In this document: one piece after another, positions 9,916 through 25,025 of the stretch
How positions within the stretch are numbered: the stretch's first letter is position 1
Layout: every line of letters starts with the position of its first letter
Source: Syntrophaceae bacterium
Lineage (GTDB): Bacteria > Desulfobacterota > Syntrophia > Syntrophales > Smithellaceae
Direction of reading: 5' to 3'
Assembly: GCA_003139775.1 (NCBI GenBank)
Contig: PLGI01000169.1
Location: 1 to 36,881 of the forward strand
Length of the DNA stretch: 36,881 nt
Translations under genes and position numbers: made by a program
The notes under the pieces: model-generated
What the model was told of the DNA's origin: nothing
The model's input: the letters and a program-made list of their open reading frames with translations, nothing else
Databases searched by the model: none

Positions 9916-9936
9916 TAAAGCGCTAGGGGATTGAAT

Positions 9937-10508: not shown

Positions 10509-10871
10509 ATGAACAAATTAAATTCTTTGCGGCAAGCTGCCGTGAAAGGATATTCTGCTATTTCAAATAGTTTATTTAAGATTACCATAATCGTTTGCTT
10601 CATAATATTTCTGATAATCTATTATCAATCTACATTGAACCAAAGGTATCAATATTATAATTGGGAAAATAACATCGTATTTTTTGACACGAAAAAGGGC
10701 GAGATGTATGCGTTAAGTATGAAGGATGGTATATGGATTAAGTTGTCTCCATTTAGCGAATCGAAAGCAATACCGATTAAAAAAGCAATACCTACTCCTC
10801 CAGACGGATTTAGTGGTGTAGGAAGTAGTGTAGTTCCAGAATTTGATATTGTTAAACCTAAGAATAAATGA
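10509..10871 (+). CDS. small single-pass membrane protein, unknown
   Basis: This 120-residue protein has one transmembrane helix (about residues 23-41) after a short basic N-terminus, followed by a probably periplasmic domain ending in a Pro-rich segment (AIPTPPDGFSGVG). A GAAAGGGAAAAACGAG stretch precedes the ATG. I do not recognise the family. Codon use and AT content match the island, and a lipoprotein gene follows 54 bp downstream on the same strand. Confidence 0.6.
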   Translation: MNKLNSLRQAAVKGYSAISNSLFKITIIVCFIIFLIIYYQSTLNQRYQYYNWENNIVFFDTKKGEMYALSMKDGIWIKLSPFSESKAIPIKKAIPTPPDGFSGVGSSVVPEFDIVKPKNK

Positions 10872-10925
10872 AATGAGTTAAGAAAATCAGCTATATTTTT
10901 TCATCCAGTAAATTATGGAGAATTT

Positions 10926-11279
10926 ATGAATAAATTATTTTTAATCATTTTGGTCAGTATTCTAGGAGTAGTAAGCTGTTGTTTTATGTCCCCTGAGGTT
11001 ATATCAACGGGACCTGATACATACACTGTTACATCTGGCACAAGCATTGGCTTTTCCAGTGCCGGTGTTAGGGCAGAGGTTTATCGTGCTGCAAATGAAT
11101 TTTGTGCAAAGCGTGCTTTGGTAATGGTTCCAGTTTCAATAGATGCTCGCGAGGGTGAATTGGGTCGACACCCACCGAGCGCCACATTAGTATTTAGAGC
11201 TTTGAAACCTGGCGATCCAGATATTAAGCGTGTAAATGTAGAAGGGCCTGACTCAATTCAGCGCAATCAAGATCGCTAG
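10926..11279 (+). CDS. small lipoprotein
   Basis: This 117-residue protein has a signal peptide ending in a lipobox-like GVVSCC (Cys18/19), indicating export and lipidation. The mature part contains GPDTYTVTSG and EFCAKRALVMVPV, a layout common in tiny lipoproteins carried by mobile integron cassettes. TATGGAGAATTT precedes the ATG. Directly downstream is an attC-like half site (11292-11335), so the gene may be a stranded cassette. The function is unknown. Confidence 0.65.
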   Translation: MNKLFLIILVSILGVVSCCFMSPEVISTGPDTYTVTSGTSIGFSSAGVRAEVYRAANEFCAKRALVMVPVSIDAREGELGRHPPSATLVFRALKPGDPDIKRVNVEGPDSIQRNQDR

Positions 11280-11291
11280 TAAATGAAAAAA

Positions 11292-11335
11292 TATAACAAG
11301 TCGCTCAAAGCCGTTCGCTTCCGCTCACTGGACAG
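11292..11335 (+). repeat. decayed integron attC-like site
   Basis: Just after the lipoprotein stop, TATAACAAGTCGCTCAAAG then CCGTTCGCTTCCGCTCACTG resemble the left part and central arm of common attC sites (TAACAA-type simple site followed by a GCTTCGC loop). The expected closing GTTRRRY box is not seen, so the site is broken. The rest of the 11280-11554 gap is AT-rich and holds nothing else I can name. Confidence 0.45.
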
Positions 11336-11554
11336 TAGTAGATGACACCAATTCTAAAGATTGTAAAAAAAATGACTTGAGTAGAACATGCCAAAATAGA
11401 CACGAAAAAATAATTCAAGATTGATTATTGACTACACCTACAAAGTGTTAAAAATATGCAGTTATTAAAATTGAGGATTACTATTTAAAAGGTGGCATCC
11501 GAAATCGATAATGAGCCAAGGAAAGACCTCTTTGTCCTTACTGTTGCTCACTTT

Positions 11555-12403
11555 TCATTTACGTGAAGATTTAATTCCTTCAAAACCTTGGTCTGAACCC
11601 TCGGTAAATTCAGTATCTTTAAGACCATCGGATGATATTTTGAAGACTAATTTATCGTTGGTTGCTTCTACAATATCAATTACATAGTCTTTAAATCTAA
11701 CCTGTTTGGCTTTAGGTTCAAAAGTAAGATTTTGATAAAAAGCAGTTTTGGCATCGTATCCTCTTGTATATTCTCTATACATAATATTCATAGAAACATT
11801 ATTAATGCCGCTATAAATCAATTCATGATTAATATAACCGCATGTATTACCACCATAGTTAATATTTGCATCGCATAAAAAGTCATCATAATTAAAAACT
11901 GCTTTAATAAATTTTACATTTGATGGTTGCAGTTCAAAATCACCCGTTGTTACTATATGTTTTTTATAATGAAGAGCATTTTTCTTAACATTGCCACTAT
12001 CATCAACCAAAACTCCATAAATATTATTTCCATTAATGTCAGCAGGGAATATTATGTCATATAAAATACCGTCCACTTCGGTTTTGTCATATGATTCGTA
12101 TTGTGACTTGTTTTTAAATCCAGATATATTGAGTCTGGAATTAGAAAGTCCAAGCATAGATGGAGCATTCGCTGTCAACGTAAAGTCCTCTGTAGGCCTT
12201 AGGACAGTCTTCACATAACCTTTAAACACATAATAATCCTTCACCTTCAATATGCTTTGTCCAATGTAGATTATTTTTACTTCCTCTATCTGGTAATCTT
12301 TTACGTAAGAATGTCGGATTATTTGAGGTTGATGACCGCACCCAGAAACAAATGATATTGTGAAGAAAATAATAAGAATGAATAGAAATAATTTTCTTTT
12401 CAT
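11555..12403 (-). CDS. lipoprotein of unknown function
   Basis: This 282-residue protein has a basic N-terminus (MKRKLF), a hydrophobic signal segment, and the lipobox VSGC, so it is probably membrane-anchored by lipid. The start at 12403 is chosen because GGGAGGATTCAAG lies immediately upstream; a longer frame begins at 12418. The mature part is beta-rich with no recognisable domain. It is AT-rich like the island and is the last intact gene before the tRNA. I do not recognise a family. Confidence 0.6.
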   Translation of the reverse strand: MKRKLFLFILIIFFTISFVSGCGHQPQIIRHSYVKDYQIEEVKIIYIGQSILKVKDYYVFKGYVKTVLRPTEDFTLTANAPSMLGLSNSRLNISGFKNKSQYESYDKTEVDGILYDIIFPADINGNNIYGVLVDDSGNVKKNALHYKKHIVTTGDFELQPSNVKFIKAVFNYDDFLCDANINYGGNTCGYINHELIYSGINNVSMNIMYREYTRGYDAKTAFYQNLTFEPKAKQVRFKDYVIDIVEATNDKLVFKISSDGLKDTEFTEGSDQGFEGIKSSRK

Positions 12404-12766
12404 CTTGAATCCTCCCATTTATTAAATGTAGTGATTGAACTAATGAAAATGAATCTGTTTATTTAAGATACCAAATTTCTAATGATTTACAAGATATAAT
12501 TTACTCTTGTTTGTTTATTATGGAATGAAAGGTTGTATATTCATCTGAACTGACAATTTGATGATTACAGGAAGTAAGTATTAACTTGTTCATCCAATTT
12601 CTGTTTTACTTATCAACCTTCGTTTTTGAAAAATTTACCCTGGGGGAATTTAGGGCTTGAATACAAGCGGCAGCAGTATCTGTGGCCCTCATACCCCCCC
12701 TAATACGGAAAAGTCGTATCAAATTCAGAAGAATATTATTGAACGAGAAAACCCTGGAAATACTTC

Positions 12767-12944: not shown

Positions 12945-13021
12945 TGGTGCCCCTGGCGCGAGTCGAACGCGCGGCACACGGATTAGGAATCCGTTGCTCT
13001 ATCCTTCTGAGCTACAGGGGC
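12945..13021 (-). tRNA. tRNA-Arg (anticodon CCT)
   Basis: On the minus strand the sequence folds as a full cloverleaf: acceptor GCCCCTG pairing with CAGGGGC, D-stem GCTC/GAGC, anticodon stem ACGGA/TCCGT with loop TTCCTAA (anticodon CCT), T-stem GCGCG/CGCGC with loop TTCGACT, discriminator A and an encoded CCA. The 3' end points to the AT-rich island on the left; tRNA 3' ends are common attachment sites for integrases, though no integrase gene is visible here. Confidence 0.95.
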
Positions 13022-13192: not shown

Positions 13193-14653
13193 TTAATCGC
13201 TTTCCGGTTCAAACTGATTTTTCGCTGACCAGAATGATGGTAGATGGCGCAGTAAATATATGAGACTTTTGCGATGCTGCCAGATACGGTTGCGGAATTT
13301 TTTGCGCCAGGCGGTATCGGAATAAAAGCGCTTCACATGCTCATTATAGAGTTGATCGAGTCTCTTTTGGGAGGCAATTCCTTTCGGCACAAAAACAAAA
13401 TTGAGACAGTTCATCAGACGCCAGTCTTCATTGAATGTTCCCTCGTCTTTTATTGTGTTCCAAAGCGGCGCTCCGGGAAAAGGCGTAAATTTTGCCATGT
13501 TCATGTCGTCCAACCCAAGCGTTATGATAAAGTCGGATGTGCGCTTGATTGATTCTTCCGTCTCTCCGGGCAAACCCATCATGAATAACCCTTTGGCGCG
13601 CAATCCGGCCCTCTGAATCCGCTGTACGGTATCGCAAACATCATCCAGCGATACGCCGGATTTGTGCCGCTCAAGCATCTGCGGATCGGCGGATTCAATG
13701 CCTAAAGAAACCATTAGGCATCCGGAGTCTTTGAGCATCTTTAACAAATCATAATCAGTGTAGCCCACGCGCACAGCGCAGTTAAAATTAATTCCCAGAG
13801 GATAACGGCTGAGTTTTTCGCAAAGTTCAACAATCCGCGGACGGTTCATTGTAAACAAATCATCGTAGATGTTGACATGGTGCACGCCGAATTTTGTCCG
13901 CAAATATTTCATGTGTTCGTAAATGTAAGCGGCGGAATTGTAGCGGAATCCTTTTTTGAAAACGGAGCGGTCGCAGTAGGAACATTGATAAACGCAGCCC
14001 CGCGAGGTAATCATCGTTGCCCCGGGAGTATGGACATAGCTGAATAATGGCAAGTGGTAATCGCCGGGAAAACCTTTGAGCTTTTCGTAGGCGGGAAACG
14101 GCAGGCTGTCTAAATCGGATATTTTCGGACGCGGATCATTGGTAATAACTTCTGATCCACGGCGCCAGATCAACCCTTTAATTTCAGCGGGGTCAAAGCC
14201 GGCGGCAAGCTCAGACATCGTTACTTCACCCTCGCCGGTAACAAGAAAATCAAAAGCCGGATAATCCTGCAGAAGCTTTCCCTCTAGCGCGGAGACATGG
14301 ACTCCTCCGCACACTGTCATGGTATCAGGAGATTGCCCTTTGATTTTTTGCGCAAGATCGGCGGCATCGGGAAACGATGATGTTGTTGCCGAAAAGCCGA
14401 TGATCTGCGGCTGATAGGTTAAGATTGCCTGCGCCTGTTTTTGCAGGTCAAACGGAACATCAAGACCGAGGCAATCGTAAACAAAAACATTATGGCCCTG
14501 CGCTATTAAATAAGCGGCGATGGAGAGAAGTCCTTGAGGCACCATCCGATTGGCAATATCGGTAATGTCGCGCTTTCCGGGAAACCAATTGAATCCCCGC
14601 GGATGAACAAGGGCGATGCGTTTTTTGTCATTTCCGACAGCAGTATGCGTCAT
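13193..14653 (-). CDS. B12-binding radical SAM enzyme
   Basis: This 486-residue protein has an N-terminal cobalamin-binding-like Rossmann domain (GLLSIAAYLIAQGHNVFVYD; IIGFSATTSSFPDA; VCGGVHVSALEG) and a radical SAM domain with the cluster-binding CVYQCSYC (Cys220, Cys224, Cys227). Later segments GIESADPQMLERHKSG and KGLFMMGLPGETEESI are typical of the BchE/P-methylase-like class. Such enzymes catalyse C-methylation, cyclisation or other radical steps. It is the last gene downstream of a ketosynthase-like gene and probably tailors the product of the fatty-acid-like cluster. Its substrate is unknown. It could instead act independently, because repeats separate it from its neighbour. Confidence 0.88.
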   Translation of the reverse strand: MTHTAVGNDKKRIALVHPRGFNWFPGKRDITDIANRMVPQGLLSIAAYLIAQGHNVFVYDCLGLDVPFDLQKQAQAILTYQPQIIGFSATTSSFPDAADLAQKIKGQSPDTMTVCGGVHVSALEGKLLQDYPAFDFLVTGEGEVTMSELAAGFDPAEIKGLIWRRGSEVITNDPRPKISDLDSLPFPAYEKLKGFPGDYHLPLFSYVHTPGATMITSRGCVYQCSYCDRSVFKKGFRYNSAAYIYEHMKYLRTKFGVHHVNIYDDLFTMNRPRIVELCEKLSRYPLGINFNCAVRVGYTDYDLLKMLKDSGCLMVSLGIESADPQMLERHKSGVSLDDVCDTVQRIQRAGLRAKGLFMMGLPGETEESIKRTSDFIITLGLDDMNMAKFTPFPGAPLWNTIKDEGTFNEDWRLMNCLNFVFVPKGIASQKRLDQLYNEHVKRFYSDTAWRKKFRNRIWQHRKSLIYLLRHLPSFWSAKNQFEPESD

Positions 14654-14676
14654 AATTAACTTTCATTTCGTTATGT

Positions 14677-14710
14677 GTGTCCCCCGCCGGCGGAGGACAC
14701 GGAATGACAG
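14677..14710. repeat. palindromic REP-type repeat
   Basis: GTGTCCCCCGCC and GGCGGAGGACAC form a near-perfect 12-bp stem (14677-14700), followed by GGAATGACAG. It lies between the radical SAM and chain-length-factor-like genes and could act as a terminator or transcript stabiliser. Confidence 0.55.
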
Positions 14711-14720
14711 GCTGTTAAAT

Positions 14721-15728
14721 TTATTTTGTTGACGCTACGACAAGCGCCTGTTTCCCCGAAGCGTGACAATTATAGTGCACGAAAAGAGCTGCCGGTATTT
14801 CCCGCAGGGCGCGTGCTATCCCGAAAGCGGCTGCTGTAGAATGAATACCACAATAAGGCAAATAATCGTCAACCTCCCAACCTTTGAGTTTCCAGAAGTC
14901 AGAGTCAATTTTATTCAAGCGGAAACCCGGAAGTAAAAAACGTTTTTTTTTCTGCCAAGCACTATCTGCGGGAATAAGCTTTTCGCTTTGGCTTAAAATA
15001 TTTTCGCTTGCGGAAAATTCTTCCGGCGAAATTATTTTGTTGCCAAAATCCACCGCCAGTATATTGCCAATATAATTCTCCTTATCTTTTCCCAGCAAAA
15101 GCCAGGAACTGCCTTCGCCCATCGGCATGGAGTGGGAGTTCTCCGGCGTTAAGTTCACGCGTTCGCGGTATTCCTCAACAGTGGGAGTAAAAATATCACA
15201 ACCGCCGACCAGCGCAAGCTCTATTTCACCGCTTTCCAGATAGCTAAGAGCTAGCCATAAAGCCGATTCGAAAGATAATTCTTCCTGAGATATGGTCAGC
15301 ACGGTTCCCGTAACTTCGCAAATCCGCGCCAGAACAAACGCGGCGGCATTGCTCACCGAATTGGCGAACTGATTGGGACTGGGGAATCCGCCTCCATGCT
15401 TGAACACCTGAGTAATGAACGGCATTATTTCGTCAACGTTTCCCAATCCCGTCGAGAGAAATATCCCCACTTTTTTCCCTTTTAAATAACCAAGCGATAC
15501 TTTTTGCAGACAGGCGATCCCTCCGCAACAGACCATCTTGATGAATCTTCCGGCGCGGCGCATCGGTTGTCCCATAATTTCGTTGACCAGATCGTCGGGA
15601 TTCAAGGGCAATTTGCTTTCTTCCCAAAGCGCATCGCGATTGGGCGTGAGTGACGGGCCTATGTAACTTGCGGCGATCACTGGCATGGATTTCTGGATTA
15701 TTTTTTGATTACTATTTTTTATGCTCAT
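14721..15728 (-). CDS. ketosynthase-like protein lacking the active-site Cys (chain-length-factor-like)
   Basis: This 335-residue protein has the condensing-enzyme (KAS I/II) fold: GIFLSTGLGNVDE, FPSPNQFANSVSNAAA, ELALVGGCD, MGEGSSWLLL, and a late CGIHSTAAAFG carrying the equivalent of the second His region. The nucleophilic-elbow Cys is absent: TISQEELSFE places Glu150 where TACSSS would put Cys. Chain-length factors of type II polyketide systems also lack this Cys, usually with Gln. The protein is therefore likely to form a heterodimer with the intact ketosynthase at 16147-17313 and set chain length or decarboxylate malonyl-ACP. The two genes are not adjacent; a broken small gene lies between them. 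Confidence 0.78.
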   Translation of the reverse strand: MSIKNSNQKIIQKSMPVIAASYIGPSLTPNRDALWEESKLPLNPDDLVNEIMGQPMRRAGRFIKMVCCGGIACLQKVSLGYLKGKKVGIFLSTGLGNVDEIMPFITQVFKHGGGFPSPNQFANSVSNAAAFVLARICEVTGTVLTISQEELSFESALWLALSYLESGEIELALVGGCDIFTPTVEEYRERVNLTPENSHSMPMGEGSSWLLLGKDKENYIGNILAVDFGNKIISPEEFSASENILSQSEKLIPADSAWQKKKRFLLPGFRLNKIDSDFWKLKGWEVDDYLPYCGIHSTAAAFGIARALREIPAALFVHYNCHASGKQALVVASTK

Positions 15729-15750
15729 ATTTTTTTATTCGTAAATTGTT

Positions 15751-15779
15751 GTCATTCCCGCCTCCGAGTGGGAATCCAG
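15751..15779. repeat. dispersed palindromic repeat (GTCATTCC...GGAATCCAG type)
   Basis: GTCATTCCCGCC then GAGTGGGAATCCAG forms a short imperfect hairpin. A closely similar unit lies inside prmC at 32114-32140, and half copies occur at 22441-22450 and 14701-14710. This is a common type of dispersed repeat in proteobacteria. Confidence 0.6.
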
Positions 15780-15787
15780 TATTTTCA

Positions 15788-16083
15788 TTAAATAGAATTG
15801 TTCCCTTTTCGCCTTTTATCTTTTTTTCGGAATAAATTCTTAAACCAGCTAAAGTCGATGGAAGCATAGTAATCATTTCCATCATACTTCTTATTTATAT
15901 TTCCAAAGAAAAACTTCAGTGGCCAGTTGTTGCCTCACCAAGCATACATTCCAAATAACGCAACAAGCGCAAACACCAATATGGAATCACTCCAATTATC
16001 TTTCATTATTGAATGTATTATATACCCCCTCCAATACAGAAGAACGCCATAATCCTAGACAGTATTCGCCACTCTTTATTCAT
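15788..16083 (-). pseudogene. broken small membrane protein gene
   Basis: A good ribosome site (AAGGGGTAAT) precedes ATG at 16083, giving MNKEWRILSRIMAFFCIGGG before a stop at 16018. A second frame, shifted by two bases, continues from about 16006 with DSILVFALVALFGMYAW, then an in-frame TGA (15935-15937), then GNNWPLKFFFGNINKKY and a basic tail to 15788. The pieces read as one membrane protein damaged by a frameshift and a nonsense codon. It fills most of the 417-bp gap between the two ketosynthase genes. Confidence 0.5.
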
Positions 16084-16146
16084 ATTACCCCTTATAATAT
16101 TACCAAGAAATAAGATAATGGCAGCCGCCTTTTTTCTTTCATGCGG

Positions 16147-17313
16147 TCACTCCTTGATAATCAAATAACTCGTGCATGTTCCGCCGAAACCGAAAAAAGT
16201 AAACAGGTAAGCTCCGTCGCGCGCCGCAATGTTTTTCTGCGAAGGCGCGAAGCCAATTTCCGGATCAATTTCCGTAAAACCGAAACTGCGGGGTATAAAC
16301 CCCTCTTCACAGCAGGAAAGCCAGACGGCCGTTTCCACGGCTCCTGCCGCGCCCAGTGTGTGGCCGATAGCGCCTTTCAGCGATACCACAGGAGGAAGGT
16401 TTTTGCCAAAGAGTTTGACCAACCCTCTTCCCTCGGAAAGATCGTTGTCCCTTGTGCCTGTCCCGTGAGCCTTGATGGCTACAACATCGCCGGCAGACAT
16501 CCGCGCTGATGTAAGTGTTTGTTGCACAACCTCGCTGACAGTCACTCCGTCAATTCCCGCCGAAGTCATACTTTTGATATCGTTGTATAGATAGCCGCCG
16601 GTAAATTTATATTTTGCGGAAGCGGCAGATGATTCTTCCGTATCCATAATCACAACGGCGGAGGCTTCACCAATTTGCATACCGGCGCGGGTCGCGCAAA
16701 ACGGCCGGCATTGGTCGTAATCAAAAAGGAGCAGACTGGCAAATCCATGCAGGGTCATATTTAGAAGCGGCTCAAAGCCGACAACTATCGCCCGACGAAT
16801 TTTCCCCCGTTTAAGAAGATCGGCGGCGACAACTAGAGCGTGCGAGCTGGAAACACAAGCCATGCTAAAAGTCAGGGCCATGCCCCTGATTCCGTATTTA
16901 TTGATGATTAAATCGGCCACTTCGCCGGGACCTCTGTTGCGGCAGGAAATAGCCGGTGATTGATTGTCGGGATTTTTGCGCACGGCCTCGGTAAATTCAT
17001 ATTCATTGCGAATAAAGAGGCCGCCTGTCGTGCCCACCAGCACACTGGATTCGGCAATTTCTTCAGCGGATAGTTCCGCCCGCGAAAAAGCTTCAGCAAG
17101 CGCGCGCTCCAACATGGCCATTGATTTATCCAAAGGGTTTCCGGAATAGGGAACTTCAAAAGCCTTATATTCACGGTTGATTAAATGAGAGGAAACACCC
17201 GCCGCTGCCGGCGGCGCGTTTCCCGCGATTAAATTACGTGCCGAATCAGGAGCACTCCAGCCAAGAGAAGTCACGGCGCCCCAGCCGCGCACATAAATAT
17301 CTCCATGGTTCAT
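16147..17313 (-). CDS. beta-ketoacyl-ACP synthase (FabF/KAS II-like)
   Basis: This 388-residue condensing enzyme has the complete triad: Cys153 in SMACVSSSHAL, His283 in KAHGTGTRDND, and His318 in GAIGHTLGAAGAVE. It should condense malonyl-ACP with an acyl chain during fatty-acid-like or polyene synthesis. It is shorter than FabF (about 412). It is coupled to the ACP gene upstream by a 4-bp overlap. Together with the Cys-less homologue at 14721-15728 it probably forms a ketosynthase/chain-length-factor pair, as in aryl-polyene clusters. A primary FabF role is less likely given the neighbouring exporter and BtrH-like genes. Confidence 0.88.
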   Translation of the reverse strand: MNHGDIYVRGWGAVTSLGWSAPDSARNLIAGNAPPAAAGVSSHLINREYKAFEVPYSGNPLDKSMAMLERALAEAFSRAELSAEEIAESSVLVGTTGGLFIRNEYEFTEAVRKNPDNQSPAISCRNRGPGEVADLIINKYGIRGMALTFSMACVSSSHALVVAADLLKRGKIRRAIVVGFEPLLNMTLHGFASLLLFDYDQCRPFCATRAGMQIGEASAVVIMDTEESSAASAKYKFTGGYLYNDIKSMTSAGIDGVTVSEVVQQTLTSARMSAGDVVAIKAHGTGTRDNDLSEGRGLVKLFGKNLPPVVSLKGAIGHTLGAAGAVETAVWLSCCEEGFIPRSFGFTEIDPEIGFAPSQKNIAARDGAYLFTFFGFGGTCTSYLIIKE

Positions 17314-17621
17314 CTCTTAACCTTTGGCGCGTCTATGATAAAATCGGCCAGCGAGTCGAATGATTGCATCGCCTTGGCCGCTGTTGAGGCGTTTTTTAAT
17401 TCCACGCCGAACTCATATCTTATTTCCATGGCGATCTCCATGGCGTCGAGACTATCCAGTATCAGCGGACCAGGACCACCGATAAATGGAACATCGGTGG
17501 GCACGTCTTCCGGCTTCACATCCGTAATTTCACATGCCCGGATTATCAATTCTTTGAGCTTGAAAATTAGTTCTTCCTTCGATGATACATTCAGCTCTTT
17601 TAACTTCTGCTTTACATCCAT
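17310..17621 (-). CDS. acyl carrier protein
   Basis: This 103-residue ACP has the phosphopantetheine attachment Ser57 in LILDSLDAMEIAMEI, preceded by the FIGGPGPL turn. It is longer than housekeeping AcpP (about 78), with N- and C-terminal extensions. It overlaps the permease gene upstream by 10 bp and the ketosynthase gene downstream by 4 bp, so it belongs to the same transcript and is the dedicated carrier for this pathway. Confidence 0.9.
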   Translation of the reverse strand: MDVKQKLKELNVSSKEELIFKLKELIIRACEITDVKPEDVPTDVPFIGGPGPLILDSLDAMEIAMEIRYEFGVELKNASTAAKAMQSFDSLADFIIDAPKVKR

Positions 17622-18772
17622 TTAATTTTCCTCCCCGCTATATAGAAACAAGCCAACGCGAAAAGCGATAGGACGGCCAGTTTAGGCAATATAGTGCTAA
17701 AATCTGCGTCGCGCAAAAAAACATCAAGATAAGCCTGATGCGCCCAGAATATCGGCGATATCATCGCCAGTTTTTTCATCATAAACGACATAACAAAATA
17801 TGGAACCATAATGCCGCCAAGTACTCCCATTAATATGGCGCCCGTCGCTGCCAGTGTTGGACACTGTTCAGGCGTTTTTGCCAGCGCCGCGACAAGCACG
17901 CCAAAACCGGTTGTGGCGGCCGCAACAACCAGTGTGACCGGAATCAAGTGCCAGAGGTGATTTCCCGTTTGAAAAGAAGAGCCGACAATGTGAGGCGCGA
18001 TAAAGACACCTACAAACAGCATCAAAAGAAACTGAACAACATTAATTATATAATAAGGAATAATTTTCCCCAGGGCAATTGTATTGGCGCTTACTGAATA
18101 AGTAAAAAGACGCTGCAAAGTGCCGTCATTTTTTTCTTTAAGAAAACCTATAGACATGGGAATGGCAATAAAAAACATAGCAAATATCGCATAGCCCGGA
18201 ACCGCTTGCTGAAGAGGGCTGGGAATGTCCCTGTTTTTCTTTGTTTTCTCAATGATTAAATTGGCGACCACAGTATCAAGGTTGTCTATTCCCATGACTA
18301 CTTCCACGGTCAAACCGGTCATTAAAGAACGGACGGCTATTTTGTGACCTATATCAAGTACAGGATCAAAATAAATTTCAACAGGTTTTGTTCCTTCATC
18401 AAAACCTTTGGGAATGATAACAAGTACCTGCGCTTTGCCATATTCAAAAATACGGTCTTTATCCATACCAGGCGGCAGATTAATTCTCTTAATCAGCTTA
18501 TGGGATTGTATTTTTTCTTCAAGCAGGTTCGCTTTTGGTAATTTGCTTTCATTTTCAATAACCAACGGAATTTGTCTTTCATATATTTTGTCCGCATAGA
18601 CTCCCTGCAGCGCCAGAGTCATGAAAAAAATCAACGCCAATGGCATGAGAAAAAGAAGCAGTATTGTCTGCTTGTCCCGAAACATAATCAACATTTCTTT
18701 TTTGACAAATTCCGTAAGCTGCCTTTTAATCAAGTTATATTCACCTGCATAAAAATTTTTTTCATTCTGCAA
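17612..18772 (-). CDS. ABC-2 type transporter permease
   Basis: This 386-residue permease has one N-terminal membrane helix (about 33-55), a large extracytoplasmic domain of about 120 residues (including YFDPVLDIGHK), and then five or six helices in the C-terminal half beginning near PGYAIFAMFFIAIP. This is the layout of ABC-2 exporters of the YhgE/YbhR type. The matching ATPase is encoded just upstream. It probably exports the product made by the ketosynthase/ACP genes, or moves a lipid-linked form across the inner membrane. A 297-bp repeat-filled gap separates it from the ATPase gene. Confidence 0.88.
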   Translation of the reverse strand: MQNEKNFYAGEYNLIKRQLTEFVKKEMLIMFRDKQTILLLFLMPLALIFFMTLALQGVYADKIYERQIPLVIENESKLPKANLLEEKIQSHKLIKRINLPPGMDKDRIFEYGKAQVLVIIPKGFDEGTKPVEIYFDPVLDIGHKIAVRSLMTGLTVEVVMGIDNLDTVVANLIIEKTKKNRDIPSPLQQAVPGYAIFAMFFIAIPMSIGFLKEKNDGTLQRLFTYSVSANTIALGKIIPYYIINVVQFLLMLFVGVFIAPHIVGSSFQTGNHLWHLIPVTLVVAAATTGFGVLVAALAKTPEQCPTLAATGAILMGVLGGIMVPYFVMSFMMKKLAMISPIFWAHQAYLDVFLRDADFSTILPKLAVLSLFALACFYIAGRKIKWM

Positions 18773-18789
18773 AGTTCACAAATGGATTA

Positions 18790-18985
18790 ATGAACCTCCC
18801 CGCAGCAAGCTGCGGGGTATCTCATGGTTGGTAGCTACTCTCCAAGCGAAGCAAGCTTCGGGGAATATTACCCGGAGAGATTTAATATTCAAAGCATAAC
18901 GCGGCGGCAGTGAAACTCGAATTACAGTTACGTAGTTCAACTGTAATTCGTTAGTTGAACTGTCCCTTGCCAATGGGGCAAGGAG
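18790..18985. repeat. cluster of perfect hairpins between transporter genes
   Basis: Within the 297-bp gap are four tight palindromes: CCCCGCAGC/GCTGCGGGG (18798-18817), CGAAGC/GCTTCG (18847-18860), CGAATTACAGTT/AACTGTAATTCG (18919-18950) and CCTTGCC/GGCAAGG (18965-18983). A fifth pairing, AGTTCAAC/GTTGAACT (18934-18961), overlaps the third and is mutually exclusive with it. The block looks like a miniature mobile element or composite REP sequence. No gene is present. Confidence 0.6.
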
Positions 18986-19069
18986 GAGACTCCGCAGGCG
19001 TATTGTGAATACGTCGAGGAAGTCTTGACGCAGCCAACAAAGTTATGCAAAGAAAAATCCTTTTATGCT

Positions 19070-19813
19070 TTAATCATCACGCAATCCTCTCCCAGTCTTT
19101 TCGAGGAAGAATTTTTCCAGATTATCTATCGCGGACATCGCTCCATCAAAAACCATTTCACCCCTGTCTGCCAAAGTTACGCTTGAGCAAATATGTGCGG
19201 CTTCTTCCATTATGTGGGTGGATAACAAAATAGTCATACCTGATGCGTTGAGATTTCTCAGGGTTTCGTAAATATGATTACGGCTCTGCGGATCGACGCC
19301 AACAGTCGGTTCATCGAGTAACAGGAGTTTCGGAGAATGCAGCAGCGCCACGGCCAGATTCAAGCGTCTTTGCATTCCTCCCGAATAAGTGACGACCAGC
19401 TTGTTGGCGTGGCCGGTAAGTCCTGTCTGAGCAAGCACATCATCCGATCGTTTGGCTATTTGTTCATCCGAGAGATTAGCCATCGCTCCAAAAAAGCGCA
19501 GATTTTCGCGGGCGGTAAGCATCATATAAAGTGAGATAGATTGCGGCGCGCAACCGATGGACAAAAGAGCCCTGTTGTCAGGCATCTTGTTTCCAAAGAT
19601 AAAAACTTCTCCCGAATAGCCTCTTAACACTCCGGTAATAATGCGCATCAGCGTGGTTTTGCCCGCGCCGTTCGGTCCTAAAAGCGCGTGAATCTTTCCT
19701 TCCTCTAGCGACATGGGAAAATTGCGCAATGCATACTCCATTTCGCCGGATGATGATTTATCAGCCGGCGAATTGTAAGAAAAAGATATTCCGGAAATTT
19801 CCAGAGCCTTCAT
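19070..19813 (-). CDS. ABC transporter ATP-binding protein
   Basis: This 247-residue ATPase has a Walker A LLGPNGAGKTTLMRI, signature YSGGMQRRLNLAVALL, Walker B LLLLDEPTVGVDP and switch His in LLSTHIMEEA. It is of the CcmA/YadG class that drives ABC-2 exporters and pairs with the permease at 17612-18772. Its start overlaps the stop of the BtrH-like gene by 4 bp, so ATPase and acyltransferase are probably translated together. Confidence 0.93.
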   Translation of the reverse strand: MKALEISGISFSYNSPADKSSSGEMEYALRNFPMSLEEGKIHALLGPNGAGKTTLMRIITGVLRGYSGEVFIFGNKMPDNRALLSIGCAPQSISLYMMLTARENLRFFGAMANLSDEQIAKRSDDVLAQTGLTGHANKLVVTYSGGMQRRLNLAVALLHSPKLLLLDEPTVGVDPQSRNHIYETLRNLNASGMTILLSTHIMEEAAHICSSVTLADRGEMVFDGAMSAIDNLEKFFLEKTGRGLRDD

Positions 19814-20850
19814 GATTTCAGTTTACCTACAACATCCCGAAGATTCTTGAAAAGTTCTTCTTCCCGCCCGGCGCAGATCAGCATCAATCCGCCTGCTTTC
19901 TCGAACGTTTCTTCAGATTTTGTTTTTCTATGTTTGATGATGCGTGATGATACCACGGCAAATTCACGCCAGATGTCGCCGATGGCGGTCATCTCATTGG
20001 ATAAGTCGTTTAGTTCCGTGGAGCCGAAAAGTTCTCCTGCTTCCTGCAGAAATGCCGCAAATATATAGCGAAATCCCGCGCCGCCCGTGCCCATTTCTTC
20101 CTGCAAGCGCAGGATGTGAGCGAGTTGCCGGCAGGCTTCGACATAGCCCAGCTTTTCCGGCCATTTAATAACTTTTTGGGCAACATAGCGCATCCCCTTT
20201 ACGCCGAAAAGCGGAATGGGAATTTTGAGCATTTGATTGCAGGAATCCGTCATACCGGTAATGCAGGCCTTTCTGATGTCGGGATTGGGATTGACGGAGA
20301 TCGGATAATACATCAGGCCACGGGGTTCCATGGGGCCTCGCGCGAAACGAGCCCTTTCCATATCGTGTGTCGAACAATCCGTCGTATATTCCAGCAAGGC
20401 CGGATCGCTTATTCTGAAACCGTTTTCATTCTCGTACAGGACTATAAAGTTGTGTCCGCTAAAATTAAAGCGATAGCGTCTGGGAAAGAACGAAAGCCAG
20501 TAAACGTTGGTTGTCACTGCGGCAATCTGTCCGGTTCGGATAACGCGGCGCAACTCATCCATGCCTTTTTGCGGACTGCGAAAACGTTTTCTGAAAACAG
20601 TTACGCCCAGTCTTTTGGCTGCTTTTTTGAAAACCAATCCCGGAATTGATCTGAAAGTGCTTATGGGCAGTCCTGTCTGTTTGATAAATGGCAGATGGCC
20701 GAAAAAAATACCGCTGCCAATGCCGAAAACCATTGGTTCGGAAATATCCAAACCTTTATCGCGAAACAGTGCAGATGTAACTCCTGTCTCACAATGCGCG
20801 GAAGTGCGATGGATATAAGTTTTGCCGTTGGCTAAAGTTTCTGTCGTCAT
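19810..20850 (-). CDS. BtrH-like cysteine acyltransferase
   Basis: This 346-residue protein starts with the BtrH N-terminal domain. HCETGVTSALFRDKGLDIS places the putative nucleophile at Cys20, followed by MVFGIGSGIFFGHLPF and the His-bearing GHNFIVLYENENGFRISDP. The C-terminal half is helical, as in the domain that accompanies BtrH_N (DUF4872 type). BtrH itself transfers an acyl group from an ACP to the amine of an aminoglycoside. Here a dedicated ACP, ketosynthases and an exporter are encoded beside it, so it may release the acyl chain from the ACP onto an amine or alcohol before export. The substrate is unknown; a protease-like role is an alternative. Confidence 0.78.
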   Translation of the reverse strand: MTTETLANGKTYIHRTSAHCETGVTSALFRDKGLDISEPMVFGIGSGIFFGHLPFIKQTGLPISTFRSIPGLVFKKAAKRLGVTVFRKRFRSPQKGMDELRRVIRTGQIAAVTTNVYWLSFFPRRYRFNFSGHNFIVLYENENGFRISDPALLEYTTDCSTHDMERARFARGPMEPRGLMYYPISVNPNPDIRKACITGMTDSCNQMLKIPIPLFGVKGMRYVAQKVIKWPEKLGYVEACRQLAHILRLQEEMGTGGAGFRYIFAAFLQEAGELFGSTELNDLSNEMTAIGDIWREFAVVSSRIIKHRKTKSEETFEKAGGLMLICAGREEELFKNLRDVVGKLKS

Positions 20851-20872
20851 GAATAGTGATTACCTTTCTAAT

Positions 20873-21018
20873 GAGACCCAAGTTTCAGAAACAAAGTGCG
20901 CTGAAACTTGCTAGTCGAATTATCCCGCCGTAGGCAGGGGTTTTGAGTCCCAAGTTTCAGAAGCGAATAACCTAAAGGTCACTATAGGCGCGCTGAAACT
21001 TGCTGGACGAATTATCCC
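20873..21018. repeat. two direct copies of a hairpin repeat
   Basis: Unit 1 (20873-20926) and unit 2 (20945-21018) share CCAAGTTTCAGAA, then GCGCTGAAACTTGCT and GACGAATTATCCC or GTCGAATTATCCC. In each, CAAGTTTCAG pairs with CTGAAACTTG. Unit 2 carries an extra 20-base insert (CCTAAAGGTCACTATAGG) related to text near 13,152. The block fills the gap between the BtrH-like gene and the next gene. Confidence 0.7.
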
Positions 21019-21028
21019 ACGAGCGAAG

Positions 21029-21448
21029 CTACGTGGGGTTGTTATTTGGGGGTACGGTTTTCAGCTCTTTCCTCGTGATGTCGAGGGCTTTCGCGTAACT
21101 ATCCAGCACATGAGGTTTTAGTTTAGCAAATATTTCCGGACGCAAGTGCCTTTTGACCCGGAATGCGGCAATGCCCGCTGTTTTCCCCAGAATCTCCGGT
21201 GTCATCTGCCGCAGCTCCATATAATAAGCAAGCGGGCTTTTCTGGCCGGCAAGCACCGCTTTTCTGGTTTCTTCTTCTTTGACCTTATATTCATCATAAG
21301 CCATTCTGTTGATCATTTCATCTACCACCCAGCCCTTGCTGGGCACCATGACATATTTCCCCTTGTCATCAAGGGCGTAATTTCCTTTTTTTAGCCACCC
21401 TTCTGTATAATCGGGCACGTCATCCTGCGGAACTTCGTTTACCTTCAT
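21029..21448 (-). CDS. conserved-looking soluble protein of unknown function
   Basis: This 139-residue, highly charged protein has no signal peptide or membrane segment. The ATG at 21448 is preceded by CAGGAGTTGCCC, so it is preferred over a TTG six bases earlier. The middle (VDEMINRMAYDEYKVKEEE) and end (FRVKRHLRPEIFAKLKP) are predicted helical. It sits inside the biosynthetic cluster between the LpxL-like and BtrH-like genes, which suggests an accessory or partner role, but I recognise no family. Confidence 0.65.
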   Translation of the reverse strand: MKVNEVPQDDVPDYTEGWLKKGNYALDDKGKYVMVPSKGWVVDEMINRMAYDEYKVKEEETRKAVLAGQKSPLAYYMELRQMTPEILGKTAGIAAFRVKRHLRPEIFAKLKPHVLDSYAKALDITRKELKTVPPNNNPT

Positions 21449-21554
21449 GGGCAACTCCTGGCAAATGTAGTGATTATTTTTGTAACGTATTTCTTATACT
21501 AAATTTAATAATGCGAAAAGTCTTTTTTGTTTTATCGGTGTGAATCGATAGCAT

Positions 21555-22427
21555 TTATTTTTTTCCTAAAAACGGCTCAAAGTGGTACCACTCGAAAGGA
21601 TGATCGGCTACGAAACGGGCGAGATCAGCGGCATAGGCCTGTGCCGATTCCAGCACCGCCTTTTTTCGATCCGCGCGCGTGGCGGCAACAACCTTCCGTC
21701 CTGCAGAAACTTTTATATGATATTTTCCGACATCATCCTGATACACAAAAAAAGTCATCAACGGCGCGCCCGTCATCAGGGCAAACAAATGCGGTGTATC
21801 CGGCAGACGCACTTCATGCCCCAGAAAGTCCACAGTGACATAGCTCTGCTCTCCCCAAAGACGGTCACCCGTCATGGAAACGATCCCGCCTTCGCGCAGG
21901 AAATTGATTCCTTCCAAGAGGGCAAAGGGAGAGCTTTCTTTCTCTGAAGTCGTAACTATTTTAATCCCGCTTCGGGACAGAGTTTCTTTTTGCATCCGCT
22001 CAATTTGTTCTTTATGTTTCTCGCCCAGATAAAGCATGACAGGAAGCCCTTTGCGGTTCATCAATTGCGCGGCCAATTCCCAATTGCCAACATGCGACAT
22101 AACAATAATCGCGCCTGTCTTTTTTTTTACAGCTTCTTCCAGATGCTCCCAGCCAACACTTGCAAAATCCACTCCCTCGTTTTTTTGTAAAAGAAAGTGA
22201 TTTAAAAAGACACCGGTAAAATTATGATATTGCCTCCATACGCAAAGCAAATGATAGGACAAGCCTTGTTTCGGGAAAAGGGCACGATAAAATTTAACGC
22301 CGTGGGCAATCCGCACAGGAAAAAGAAAAAAATAACCGGTGGCGATAAACCAGGAAAACGTGCGGAAAAACCACATCCCTAAATGTTGCGAAAAATAAGT
22401 TGCTATTTTGTAGGAAAATTTTTTCAT
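21555..22427 (-). CDS. LpxL/HtrB-family lysophospholipid acyltransferase
   Basis: This 290-residue acyltransferase of the lipid A late-acyltransferase superfamily has an N-terminal membrane segment (about 16-40) and the catalytic HVGNWE (His112, Glu117; the H-x4-D/E motif). TGDRLWGEQSYVTVDFLG is the second family block. Aryl-polyene clusters commonly include such an enzyme to attach the chain to a lipid or sugar. Here it may acylate the cluster product or a membrane lipid. Housekeeping lipid A acylation is possible but less likely given the operon. Confidence 0.85.
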   Translation of the reverse strand: MKKFSYKIATYFSQHLGMWFFRTFSWFIATGYFFLFPVRIAHGVKFYRALFPKQGLSYHLLCVWRQYHNFTGVFLNHFLLQKNEGVDFASVGWEHLEEAVKKKTGAIIVMSHVGNWELAAQLMNRKGLPVMLYLGEKHKEQIERMQKETLSRSGIKIVTTSEKESSPFALLEGINFLREGGIVSMTGDRLWGEQSYVTVDFLGHEVRLPDTPHLFALMTGAPLMTFFVYQDDVGKYHIKVSAGRKVVAATRADRKKAVLESAQAYAADLARFVADHPFEWYHFEPFLGKK

Positions 22428-22536
22428 AAATTAATATCTTGTCATTCCCGACCTGGAGACTGTGTCGCAATTATCCTTTGACAAGAGAATATTAGAAAAG
22501 AATAAAAAAGCAAGAGAAAGCTAAGATAGCTTATGT

Positions 22537-23190
22537 TTATTCGCTTCCTACCGGTTGGACTTCAATGAGAGTCATCAACAGCGAATAATTAAATGTCTCA
22601 TTTGCTTGCAGTTCAATGCTCTGATAAATATTCCCCGTCGTCTTGTTAAATTTGACCTGGCGCTTCAGAATACCGGCTGATGAGTAGCGCTTAATTGCGG
22701 TGCCTTCCGATTTATCGGTAATTACGTCAATCCAGTCACCGTTTTCTTCGAGGTAGCGGCAGACGGCTGCGCCGTCGGGAAGATTGCCTTTCTTCTGAAT
22801 TTTTCCTTCCGGCGCGAAAAAGATCAGTTTAATGTCCTCAATCATATTTTTTGCAAAATCAGCGGAATCAAATGGAGGCAGCGACCGAGTGATTTTGAGC
22901 GTGCCTGGACCGGACTCGGCTTCAAACAGCACCATTCCTTCCGCGGTCATGATGGCGCAGAAGACAAAGCGAGTGGAAGGATCGGCCAGGGTTATGCCGA
23001 TGATCGCGCTTTGCGTTTTGCCGGACACACGGGTTTCTATGGCGTGCACCAGCCGGCACTTTTCTTTTAAAAAAGGGGACGGACAAGTTAAAGCCTTTTC
23101 ATCCGCCGGAGAAACGGGTGAATTAATCAACGGCAATGTCTGGCAGGAGAAAAGAAAAATGGTTAATATTAAAAGAGGTAAACCCTTCAT
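22537..23190 (-). CDS. outer-membrane-type lipoprotein, DUF3261-like
   Basis: This 217-residue protein has a lipoprotein signal (MKGLPLLILTIFLFSCQ, Cys16). The mature part is beta-rich and looks like the DUF3261 lipoproteins found beside LolA-like genes in aryl-polyene clusters. It overlaps the LolA-like gene by 4 bp, so the two are coupled and probably act together in moving the product or its carrier to the outer membrane. The family name is offered from memory of the pattern and is moderately sure. Confidence 0.65.
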   Translation of the reverse strand: MKGLPLLILTIFLFSCQTLPLINSPVSPADEKALTCPSPFLKEKCRLVHAIETRVSGKTQSAIIGITLADPSTRFVFCAIMTAEGMVLFEAESGPGTLKITRSLPPFDSADFAKNMIEDIKLIFFAPEGKIQKKGNLPDGAAVCRYLEENGDWIDVITDKSEGTAIKRYSSAGILKRQVKFNKTTGNIYQSIELQANETFNYSLLMTLIEVQPVGSE

Positions 23191-23828
23191 TGTGCATCCT
23201 GAAATACTGAGGGGTTAATTGCTTTATTGATTTCCACGTTGTCGAAATTTATCTGCGTGAAGTTATTTGCGCTTTCAGTAATTTTTACAGACTGAACAGT
23301 TGCTGATTTTTTAGAAAGGATAATCTCGATTTTCTCAATCATGCCGGTCATGCTTTTTTCCGTGGGCGTCAGCGTGATTCTGATATTCGCTCCTTCATTA
23401 ATGGTTGCCGCAAATGACGGATTCTGATCGAACCTGCCGCTCATCCAGCCGGCTACTTCCCCCAGCACTATCTTCATTGCCTGCACGCCGCCCGTCTTGT
23501 CTTCCACCATTTTCCCACCGGAAGTAATGTAGCGTTTGGTATTATTTTTATAAGCAATGACGATGCTCCTTAAAGGCTTGAAATATTCCCAGCGGAGAGA
23601 ATCGGGAGCAGCATAATAAAAACGCCCTTCCGAAATAAGAGGCCTGGATAAAATTTTCATGGATTTCTTTTGGACAAAATGGGCCTGGATGGTTTTGATA
23701 TTGGCCGATTCCTTGCGCAATTGCTCAAAATCATTCGCCCCGGCATAATTTAGCGGGGCCAAAGCTAAAAAGGCGCCAACAATAATATAAACAAAAATAT
23801 ATAAATTGCAGCGAGTGTGCATCAGCAT
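23187..23828 (-). CDS. LolA-like outer-membrane carrier protein
   Basis: This 213-residue protein has an N-terminal signal segment (about 8-30) and the LolA-like core: IQAHFVQKKSMKILSRPL, SEGRFYYAAPDSLRWEY and NNTKRYITSGGKMVED. LolA chaperones lipoproteins across the periplasm; cluster-encoded paralogues are thought to carry lipid-like products. It overlaps fabG upstream by 7 bp and the lipoprotein gene downstream by 4 bp, so it is firmly in the operon. Confidence 0.82.
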   Translation of the reverse strand: MLMHTRCNLYIFVYIIVGAFLALAPLNYAGANDFEQLRKESANIKTIQAHFVQKKSMKILSRPLISEGRFYYAAPDSLRWEYFKPLRSIVIAYKNNTKRYITSGGKMVEDKTGGVQAMKIVLGEVAGWMSGRFDQNPSFAATINEGANIRITLTPTEKSMTGMIEKIEIILSKKSATVQSVKITESANNFTQINFDNVEINKAINPSVFQDAQ

Positions 23829-24550
23829 ATTCCGCCATTAATACCCAGGACCTGTCCCGTCATGTAAGAGGCATCATTAGAACACAAAAAGCGAATGACG
23901 TTGGCTACCTCTTCCGGTTTGCCCAGACGTGCCATGGGAATCATTTTTTTGATTTCGGCAACCGGCGCGTCCTTGATCATGTCGGTTTCAATTAAACCCG
24001 GGGCAACGAGATTAACACGAATGCCAAAACGCGCCACTTCCGTGGCCAACGCGCGGGAAGCGGCAATTATTCCCGCCTTGGCCGCGGCATAATTTGCCTG
24101 TCCGCGATTAGGCATCAATGCCGAAAGGGAAGAAACCGAAACGATGGAACCGCATTTACGTCTGACCATTTCGCGCAAAACAGGTTTTGTGATGTTATAA
24201 AAACCTTTCAGACTTGTATTGATGACGCTGTCCCATTCTTCTTCGCCCAGTAGCATAAAAAGACCGTCAGCATTAATTCCGGCGTTGTTAATGAGCACTT
24301 GAATGTTTTTATGACGTTCGGTAATCGCTTTAACAGCATCTTTAGTCTGTACATTATCGGCAACATCAAATTGAAAAATTTCTCCATCTCCACCGGCGGA
24401 TTGCACGAGCTTTAATGTTTCCGCCGCCGCTGTTTCATTGGACTTAAAGTTTATAATTACGAAATACCCGGTTTTTGCCAATTCTACAGCTGTAGCCCGA
24501 CCGATGCCGCGGCTTGCGCCTGTAATTATCGCTGTTTTTTTCTCATCCAT
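23822..24550 (-). CDS. fabG: 3-oxoacyl-ACP reductase (FabG-like)
   Basis: This 242-residue short-chain dehydrogenase has the NADP-binding TGASRGIGRATAVELA, NNAGINADG, catalytic Ser141, and YAAAK (Tyr154, Lys158). It reduces the beta-keto group of the ACP-bound chain after condensation. It lies 26 bp after the dehydratase gene and overlaps the LolA-like gene. Its cluster position suggests a pathway-specific copy rather than the primary FabG. Confidence 0.9.
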   Translation of the reverse strand: MDEKKTAIITGASRGIGRATAVELAKTGYFVIINFKSNETAAAETLKLVQSAGGDGEIFQFDVADNVQTKDAVKAITERHKNIQVLINNAGINADGLFMLLGEEEWDSVINTSLKGFYNITKPVLREMVRRKCGSIVSVSSLSALMPNRGQANYAAAKAGIIAASRALATEVARFGIRVNLVAPGLIETDMIKDAPVAEIKKMIPMARLGKPEEVANVIRFLCSNDASYMTGQVLGINGGIC

Positions 24551-24576
24551 TTTCTAATCGCGCTCCTTAAAAATAA

Positions 24577-25005
24577 TTACTTATTATCTTCATTCAGGCG
24601 CAGGGCTTGAAGAGTGACTGTGGCCAGCACTTTTTCGCCAGCTTTAACAGTTCCTCCCAATACGCCATAATTATCAAATGAATACTTGTTTTCAATCATG
24701 ATAATCAAGTTTGTATTTACCGGAATTTTATTCTCCTTAAATTCGGCGTTCTTGATGCCGACAAGCCAGCCCTTAACGCCATCTTTCCCCTGCTGTCTTC
24801 TTTTGTAACCATCAACAATGGCCGCGGTTTGGGCAATGGCCTCGATTAAGACCAGCGAATTTACAGAGTCCCCGTCATAAAGAGGCCAGTTAGGATTTAC
24901 AGTAGCGGTACTAATAGCAGTGTTTTCTTTTATTTCCAGAATTCCACTGATAATTTTTATTTTCTCCCTATGGGGAATCAAACTTTCAATATCAATGTTA
25001 AGCAT
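24577..25005 (-). CDS. hotdog-fold 3-hydroxyacyl-ACP dehydratase (FabZ/ApeI-like)
   Basis: This 142-residue hotdog-fold protein contains LIPHREKIKII with the catalytic His (about 12) and SVNSLVLIEAIAQTAA with the acidic residue about 43 positions later, the FabA/FabZ pattern. It would dehydrate the 3-hydroxyacyl chain to the enoyl form. There is no enoyl reductase in the cluster, so repeated cycles could build a conjugated polyene. The ATG at 25005 is chosen over a TTG at 25011. It is the first gene of the minus-strand cluster, with a candidate promoter just upstream. Confidence 0.8.
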   Translation of the reverse strand: MLNIDIESLIPHREKIKIISGILEIKENTAISTATVNPNWPLYDGDSVNSLVLIEAIAQTAAIVDGYKRRQQGKDGVKGWLVGIKNAEFKENKIPVNTNLIIMIENKYSFDNYGVLGGTVKAGEKVLATVTLQALRLNEDNK

Positions 25006-25025
25006 AGGCAACTTTTAGAAAATTT

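Follow-up and report, generated by a model that had tools for sequence, protein, structure and literature searches.

A dialkylresorcinol-type acyl-transfer and export module without a detected resorcinol synthase in a Smithella genome

What do the acyl-transfer and export genes of a dialkylresorcinol (DAR) cluster serve in a genome where no resorcinol synthase is found? The question is posed by 13 genes (25011 to 13193, minus strand) in a window of 36,881 nucleotides, the whole of contig C18 in a 3.4-Mb genome (206 contigs, completeness given as 100%) of an oxygen-avoiding bacterium, its genus taken as Smithella. A first-pass annotation had described an aryl-polyene-type type II system, and this was borne out: a ketosynthase (KS), dehydratase (DH), ketoreductase (KR), acyl carrier protein (ACP), LolA, acyltransferase, MMPL exporter and ligase are present in the genome, on more than one contig. 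It had also held that a BtrH-like transferase with an ABC-2 transporter set the cluster apart from known ones. That was mistaken, as the same genes occur in the Azoarcus dar cluster, Chitinophaga pinensis and Flavobacterium johnsoniae, and NCBIfam already names DarG and DarH. The DarG gene had been overlooked, as had the real oddity, the absence of DarA and DarB, the aromatase and the resorcinol synthase that make the resorcinol. The system is of a known kind, and what is new is that no resorcinol synthase was found while the DAR acyl-transfer and export module is retained. From sequence comparisons, we consider it probable that this is a flexirubin-type aryl-polyene lipid pathway that was split by rearrangement, its retained acyl-transfer and export module serving an acceptor other than a resorcinol.

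Gene content of the cluster

The 13 genes, in order of transcription, are as follows; CLF denotes a chain-length factor and SAM S-adenosylmethionine.

24577-25011, minus strand: DH, first gene, FabZ/ApeP-like 3-hydroxyacyl-ACP dehydratase (TIGR01750 38 bits, far under the FabZ cut-off of 155; His14)
23822-24550, minus strand: KR, FabG-type ketoreductase, FlxB-like (NF004200 FabG 296 bits, cut-off 273; YxxxK at 154)
23187-23828, minus strand: LolA2-type periplasmic carrier (NF053544 'flexirubin LolA2' 135 bits, cut-off 125; PF03548 62 bits)
22537-23190, minus strand: DUF3261-like lipoprotein (lipobox; PF11659 16.9 bits, under the Pfam cut-off of 22.3)
21555-22427, minus strand: LpxL-like acyltransferase (PF03279 74.8 bits; HxxxxE at 112)
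21029-21454, minus strand: DarG, 141 amino acids, with a lambda-repressor-like helix-turn-helix domain at residues about 66-136 (NF053536 130 bits, cut-off 70)
19810-20850, minus strand: DarH, BtrH-type Cys-His-Asp acyltransferase with Cys20, His133 and Asp149 (NF053550 382 bits, cut-off 300)
19070-19813, minus strand: ABC transporter ATPase (PF00005 106 bits)
17612-18772, minus strand: ABC-2 permease (PF12698 86.5 bits)
17310-17621, minus strand: ACP, Ser57 (PF00550 22.7 bits, cut-off 20.8)
16147-17313, minus strand: KS, dar-type ketosynthase with Cys153, His283 and His318 (profiles, residues, tree)
14721-15728, minus strand: CLF-like partner (weak KS-family matches; active-site Cys absent)
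13193-14653, minus strand: B12-binding radical SAM enzyme, C220xxxCxxC (PF04055 90 bits, PF02310 73 bits)

Every gene named earlier is present and all share one direction, with all frames open, according to the open reading frame list and matches to Pfam and NCBIfam profiles. Five of the 12 gene borders overlap by 4-10 bases, and the rest are separated by 26 to 418 bases. Catalytic residues are present in the KS, ACP, DH, KR (Tyr154), LpxL and radical SAM (CxxxCxxC) proteins, and the CLF has 7 cysteines elsewhere but none at the active site. DarH combines a BtrH_N domain (124.7 bits) with a DUF4872 domain (169 bits); for the DH, a Pfam profile search gave no match. As had been proposed, no separate enoyl reductase was seen among the cluster genes in the profile search. 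The sole short-chain dehydrogenase/reductase gene, the KR, also hits the broad Pfam family PF13561 (named enoyl-ACP reductase), but among NCBIfam models it matches FlxB and FabG best.

Kinship with flexirubin and DAR clusters

Judged by sequence and gene order, DarG-DarH-ABC-ABC-ACP-KS-CLF is the DAR module of flexirubin clusters. In C. pinensis (locus L133) these genes stand in the same order behind two others, as DarA-DarB-DarG-DarH-ABC-ABC-ACP-KS-CLF, and F. johnsoniae (L173) has that order with extra genes interspersed. The F. johnsoniae locus further shares an aromatic lyase, KR, LpxL-like protein and LolA with the Smithella genome. DarH of the window is about 45% identical to that of flexirubin clusters; with the flexirubin-only DarG model NF053545, the window DarG scores 114.5 bits and does not reach the cut-off of 170. 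On the Smithella side, in contrast to the flexirubin clusters, no DarA or DarB was found, the module ends in a B12 radical SAM gene and DarG-DarH occurs in tandem in some relatives. PMC3992019 describes flexirubin-type pigments from Bacteroidota.

A similar comparison holds for the arcuflavin dar cluster of Azoarcus sp. BH72 which, according to PMC3949708, includes darA, darB, a conserved hypothetical protein, a BtrH-like peptidase, an ABC ATPase, an ABC permease, an ACP and a KS, the last five of which also stand together in the window. According to the same paper, Azoarcus has polyene genes in unlinked loci too, so a split layout as such is not new, and it has a chorismatase with darA and darB, where the Smithella genome instead has an aromatic amino-acid lyase and no dar synthase was found.

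In a tree of 75 KS and CLF rows, the window KS falls in a 24-row group (support 98/99) whose KS genes come from loci carrying DarH, with or without DarG; the family KS stem is long, at 1.18 changes per site. An inner group of 11 rows (100/100) includes the window and four DarB-bearing loci, three of them also with DarA and the fourth, L245, stopping at a contig end. The CLF part of the tree mirrors this with its own 11-row group (100/100), and KS3 of locus B shares a clade with a flexirubin KS (100/100).

The module is also conserved within the family. DarH occurs in 32 other family genomes; regions were fetched from 28 of them, and the order LpxL-(DarG-DarH)n-ABC-ABC-ACP-KS-CLF-radical SAM is complete in 18 of the 28, which indicates that the gene grouping is more than chance. 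Eight of the ten incomplete regions reach a contig end, and two (L047 and L069) truly deviate. Within the genus, ACPs are 85-96% and the radical SAM enzymes 81-90% identical. The first-pass annotation had allowed that the transporter and BtrH genes might prove unlinked; the ABC ATPase accompanies DarH in 28 of 28 family regions, and is not with DarH in the fetched stretches of some other loci (L042, L043, L145, L153 and L170). In the literature searched, with preprints and most subscription papers outside its reach, no paper joining Smithella with aryl polyenes was found, and papers on dialkylresorcinols and radical SAM were, by their titles, on cyanobacterial enzymes, none evidently on this system.

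Distribution of DarA and DarB

We searched for DarA and DarB (the latter with C. pinensis DarB and NF005293 as queries) in 60 relatives, which include the 36 family genomes and other families of the order, and for DarB in 395 genomes of the phylum; the genomes are related, and the counts are not independent. Neither protein had a match in the 206 contigs of the Smithella genome itself. DarA was also without a match in any of the 36 family genomes and matched in 3 of the 60 relatives, one of them weakly. Full DarB was found in 16 of the 36 family genomes, with fragments in G002 and G010. DarH is present in 33 of the 36: 16 with full DarB, one (G010) with a fragment and 16 without a match. Among the 60 relatives, the corresponding numbers for the 39 genomes with DarH are 18, 1 and 20. 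Six DarH genomes come from other families of the order, and two of these (G041 and G059) have both DarA and DarB, whereas four (G038, G042, G054 and G057) have neither.

In the phylum sample, DarH was above its cut-off in 34 genomes, with weaker BtrH-type matches in 20 more, and DarB was matched at E 1e-40 in 32. All 26 DarH genomes outside the order have DarB, compared with 3 of 8 inside the order, all 8 being in the window's family; three genomes have DarB and no DarH over the cut-off. As far as sampled, DarH without DarB is a feature of Smithella's order. It is not confined to the Smithella family, since the four genomes of other families named above show the same pattern.

Could the pathway nevertheless be a normal DAR or flexirubin one, its resorcinol synthase having escaped notice either in unassembled DNA or because a radical SAM-DarB pair was lost from the bin? 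Among family genomes, all 16 with full DarB carry it beside a B12 radical SAM gene, G010 retains a DarB fragment between similar neighbours, and G028, in which DarB has no match, carries the radical SAM gene at the end of a contig, all of which would fit such an oversight. The Smithella genome is, however, given as 100% complete, with neither DarB nor DarB's radical SAM gene found, and DarB was likewise unfound in ten other DarH-bearing genomes (G008, in about 10 contigs and 98% complete, and G004, G009, G020, G023, G030, G038, G042, G054 and G057). We regard a missed synthase as unlikely.

The module itself can be lost. In G014 (L117, about 4378-4609), the genes DarG to CLF are missing, and what is left comprises LpxL, about 30 bases of the spacer between LpxL and DarG, and the adjoining radical SAM gene. 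Because LpxL and the radical SAM gene stand side by side, it appears that DarG to CLF can be lost as a unit, and G014 can be viewed as a natural knock-out in a close relative. The absence of a DarH match from G014, G002 and G007, together with the DarB fragments in G010 and G002, would also suit a decaying remnant, in which the module fell out of use after rearrangement and loss of DarA and DarB. Against decay stand the 13 open frames and their catalytic residues, the same-genus identities of the ACPs and radical SAM enzymes, and the presence of DarH in two or three copies over the cut-off in 13 of the 33 DarH-bearing family genomes; we think it quite improbable. Genomes may keep, duplicate or lose DarG-DarH-ABC-ACP-KS-CLF whether or not they have DarA and DarB. 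The functions of the module are thereby separated, and it becomes directly testable which acyl group DarH takes and which acceptor it serves.

The front half of the pathway

The first-pass annotation had found no ammonia lyase, ligase or MMPL exporter. This holds for the frames of the window and fails for the genome. Contig C124 carries an aromatic amino-acid lyase (9028-10425; PF00221 524 bits) and an MMPL exporter fused to a methyltransferase (1856-4918), along with a thioesterase, a DAK2-DegV protein and a glycosyltransferase. A putative aryl-type ligase is on C116, where a protein is 86% identical to the AMP-binding ligase adjoining the DH in G003. C150 has a KS pair resembling the pair that precedes radical SAM 2 in relatives, and C139 has a CrtI-like oxidoreductase, an ACP, a KS and a PlsC.

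In relatives, much of this gene set lies upstream of LpxL: radical SAM 2, an aromatic lyase (PF00221 513 bits in L058), a thioesterase, DAK2-DegV, a glycosyltransferase and the MMPL-methyltransferase. The lyases from two relatives fall short of the FlxA, HutH and BagA cut-offs. DH-KR-LolA-lipoprotein forms a separate locus, followed in several relatives by an oxidoreductase, ACP, KS and PlsC, and the AMP-binding ligase is beside or near the DH. At the level of the genome, the Smithella bacterium shares a ligase, KS/KR/DH, LolA, an acyltransferase, a glycosyltransferase and an exporter with what we take to be the defining gene list of aryl polyene clusters such as that for xanthomonadin, and differs in having them on several contigs, with an MMPL-methyltransferase fusion and extra DAK2-DegV and B12 radical SAM genes.

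On this comparative evidence, the window would be the back half of a flexirubin-type pathway, with the front half present in the same genome. The earlier proposal of a self-contained, starter-less cluster making a new polyene lipid by some other start drew on the window frames tested, among which there is indeed no lyase, ligase or MMPL. With all three in the same genome, and MMPL preceding LpxL in 19 of the 28 family regions (unrecognized genes ignored), that proposal is largely refuted and now very improbable.

The DAK2-DegV protein on C124 (6802-8520; L099) is a fatty-acid-kinase-like fusion and lies near the aromatic lyase in the family and order regions that reach far enough. Its candidacy as a stand-in for an aryl ligase was dropped, given the AMP-binding ligase near the DH in relatives and on C116 here.

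A probable rearrangement between lipoprotein and LpxL

Two features mark the place where the window departs from its relatives:

22428-22536, minus strand: lipoprotein/LpxL junction, absent from 28 of 28 other family regions
22539-22660, minus strand: 3' end of the lipoprotein gene, found again on C124 after the MMPL gene (122 bp, 92.6% identity)

The lipoprotein gene precedes LpxL in 0 of the 28 other family regions, in two of which (L050 and L066) the sequence at this position is short or absent; the usual neighbour is MMPL, as noted above. The sequence after the 122-bp scar on C124 matches the downstream flank of the lipoprotein gene in G014 (84% over 220 alignment columns). From these alignments, it appears that a rearrangement brought DH-KR-LolA-lipoprotein next to LpxL, and that 122 bp of the lipoprotein gene stayed behind MMPL. 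An exchange between the two loci would be expected to leave such a trace.

The assembly is fragmented and the junction is absent elsewhere in the family, which raises the alternative that the joint is an assembly chimera and that the true layout is as in relatives. The 7.4% divergence of the two 122-bp copies argues for an old event and not an assembly error. C124 also bears the flank of the lipoprotein gene as in G014, the reciprocal product expected of an exchange, although a strain mixture could still mimic such a product. We consider a chimera fairly improbable.

DarH and its partner DarG

The first-pass annotation's BtrH-like Cys transferase is supported as a Cys-His-Asp acyltransferase. 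All 48 aligned DarH sequences, and the 24 of another set, share Cys20, His133 and Asp149. By sequence, no chain among solved structures matched DarH at E 0.01. The structural model (predicted local distance difference test (pLDDT) 93.9) matched known folds over nearly its whole length: chain D of 8gs1, from an AziU2-U3 complex (Z 24.9, root-mean-square deviation (rmsd) 4.1, 308 aligned), CtaG (9qvl; Z 24.7, rmsd 3.1, 291 aligned) and CcbD (9dkr_B; Z 21.4, rmsd 4.4, 308 aligned). The papain-like acyltransferases CtaG, CcbD and BtrH thus share with DarH both this fold and a Cys-His-Asp triad, at 9-15% identity to the structural matches, and DarH differs from them in being nearly always paired with DarG. 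CtaG and CcbD form amides. Titles in the Protein Data Bank list the CtaG variants C11A, H128A and D144N and a CcbD complex with a PCP (peptidyl carrier protein) domain. BtrH is an acyl carrier protein:aminoglycoside acyltransferase, according to PMC10318531. From residues and model, DarH looks intact, and because the cluster has this BtrH-like Cys-His-Asp acyltransferase, the ester- or amide-linked product suggested by the first-pass annotation is plausible.

In three sets of genomes with some overlap, DarG lies immediately upstream of 47 of 48, 80 of 82 (3 truncated excluded) and 21 of 25 DarH genes. Where family genomes have two or three DarH genes, every copy is accompanied by its own DarG in the fetched regions. 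The DarG model (pLDDT 85) best matched 6rnz_A (Z 8.6, rmsd 2.5, 65 aligned), a common fold whose domain is also found in the HEPD and HppE enzymes of the match list. Because the helix-turn-helix match is common, with Z 8.6 at best, and the domain occurs in those enzymes as well, we do not call DarG a regulator. Despite its repressor-like fold, DarG is copied with every DarH copy, and we infer that it is more likely the partner of DarH than a regulator.

Radical SAM enzymes and DarB

The radical SAM enzyme of the window is about 78-90% identical across the family regions that show it. Outside them, G097 has a 78% homologue among aryl-polyene genes, in a stretch that lacks any Dar gene, 62% homologues stand directly behind DarH in G038 and G057, and 55-66% homologues are found in other genomes. 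This distribution suggests that the enzyme is linked less to DarH than to the aryl-polyene part. By sequence, its matches among solved structures are AprD4, TokK and another radical SAM protein, at low scores that do not settle the reaction.

Homologues of a 44-49% class occur near DarH and DarB in other genomes. To see how DarB is paired, we took 105 DarB genes of at least 300 bits from the fetched loci, counting as neighbours genes within 500 bases on the same strand; because the loci were picked by DarH or DarB matches the sample is non-random, and some genomes may be counted twice. DarB has DarA as neighbour in 71 cases, a B12 radical SAM gene of a second class in 33, both in 0 and neither in 1 (L245, which is 120 bases from a contig end). 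Loci contributing to these counts include L206-L210, L212, L264-L273, L134, L136, L234, L237 and L238. The DarA-type loci are mainly from Bacteroidota, and the phylum sample has both kinds. Within the Smithella family, DarB's radical SAM gene is in 17 of 36 genomes (the 16 with full DarB, and G028; in G022 it is in two pieces), and the full DarB genes (16 of 16) have the radical SAM partner only, in many cases with three genes of about 313, 257 and 200 amino acids upstream.

DarB pairs with DarA or with the radical SAM gene and never with both, which suggests that DarA was replaced by radical chemistry. The simplest reading of these pairings would be that a B12 radical SAM enzyme took the place of the aromatase DarA beside DarB; Azoarcus DarA is annotated as a DAR aromatase in PMC3949708.

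In G010 (L274) the DarB fragment lacks its radical SAM gene and follows genes of 317, 260 and 200 amino acids that resemble the ones upstream of the radical SAM-DarB pair in relatives; it is a remnant of a DarB locus.

The B12 radical SAM enzymes, KS pairs and CrtI-like oxidoreductase could also suggest a ladderane-type lipid cluster, by comparison with ladderane clusters. We rejected this reading: the ladderane radical SAM model TIGR04072 gives 100.9 bits against a cut-off of 360, and the aromatic lyase, LolA and MMPL indicate aryl polyenes instead, making a ladderane product extremely improbable. Ladderane clusters have been reported in Desulfobacterota (PMC9902471).

Proposed pathway

The flexirubin-type aryl-polyene lipid pathway that we favour would run as follows. 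The lyase would make an aryl-acrylic acid, which the ligase would load, and the KS/KR/DH set would extend the loaded starter, with no enoyl reduction step, into an aryl polyene. An acyl chain would be carried by the dar-type ACP with its KS/CLF pair. From this carrier the acyl group would pass to Cys20 of DarH and then to an acceptor bearing a hydroxyl or an amine, DarG being the dedicated partner of DarH. Because no resorcinol synthase was found, this acceptor would be something other than a dialkylresorcinol made by DarA and DarB. The ABC pair would then move the product over the inner membrane, LpxL would attach another acyl chain, and transport to the outer membrane would fall to MMPL, LolA and the lipoprotein. 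The radical SAM protein may act as a tailoring enzyme.

A bolder version, which we offer tentatively and think somewhat doubtful, is that in Smithella's order the DAR module has become uncoupled from resorcinol production. It would build aryl-polyene lipids of a new class on a different acceptor, several acyl groups being added by tandem DarG-DarH pairs, and the relatives with DarB would use the B12 radical SAM enzyme in DarA's place for an oxygen-independent route to dialkylresorcinols.

Several observations weigh against the favoured pathway. The fragmentation of the assembly into 206 contigs means that an unfound gene could sit in unsequenced DNA, despite the completeness given. G028 was scored as DarB-less yet has DarB's partner gene at a contig end, and its DarB may be unassembled; the relatives with DarB and its radical SAM gene show that part of the family may still make resorcinol. 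The three family genomes without a DarH match indicate that the module is not essential. The tree contains long, compositionally odd rows, including L245 among the window's neighbours, and their placement is unsure. For the radical SAM enzyme of the window, G020 has no match at E 1e-60, and among the 55-66% homologues L227, L230, L231 and L243 have no related gene near. Finally, the KR scores 310 bits with the FlxB model NF053542, short of its cut-off of 340, and the DUF3261 match of the lipoprotein misses its own cut-off.

Other features of the window

Beyond the last gene of the cluster lies a tRNA gene:

12945-13021, minus strand: tRNA-Arg(CCT), at the cluster end and the edge of a low-GC island

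This island (1-12600, about 25-37% GC) ends at the tRNA-Arg. It holds genes for a caspase-like C14 protein (976-1734), two DNA methyltransferases (2136-4494), an AbiU/AIPR protein (8060-9820; PADLOC AbiU 405 bits) and a control-protein-like helix-turn-helix protein (9937-10302), and looks like a defence island. Within the cluster, a comparison of four wide operon gaps found no recurrence elsewhere inside the window. Two of the gaps (18900-19055 and 20860-21030) contain short stretches at 79-100% identity to other contigs of the genome, probably dispersed intergenic repeats. Near the right end of the window, a papain-family (C1) cysteine protease gene (34469-35398) is apparently unrelated to the cluster.

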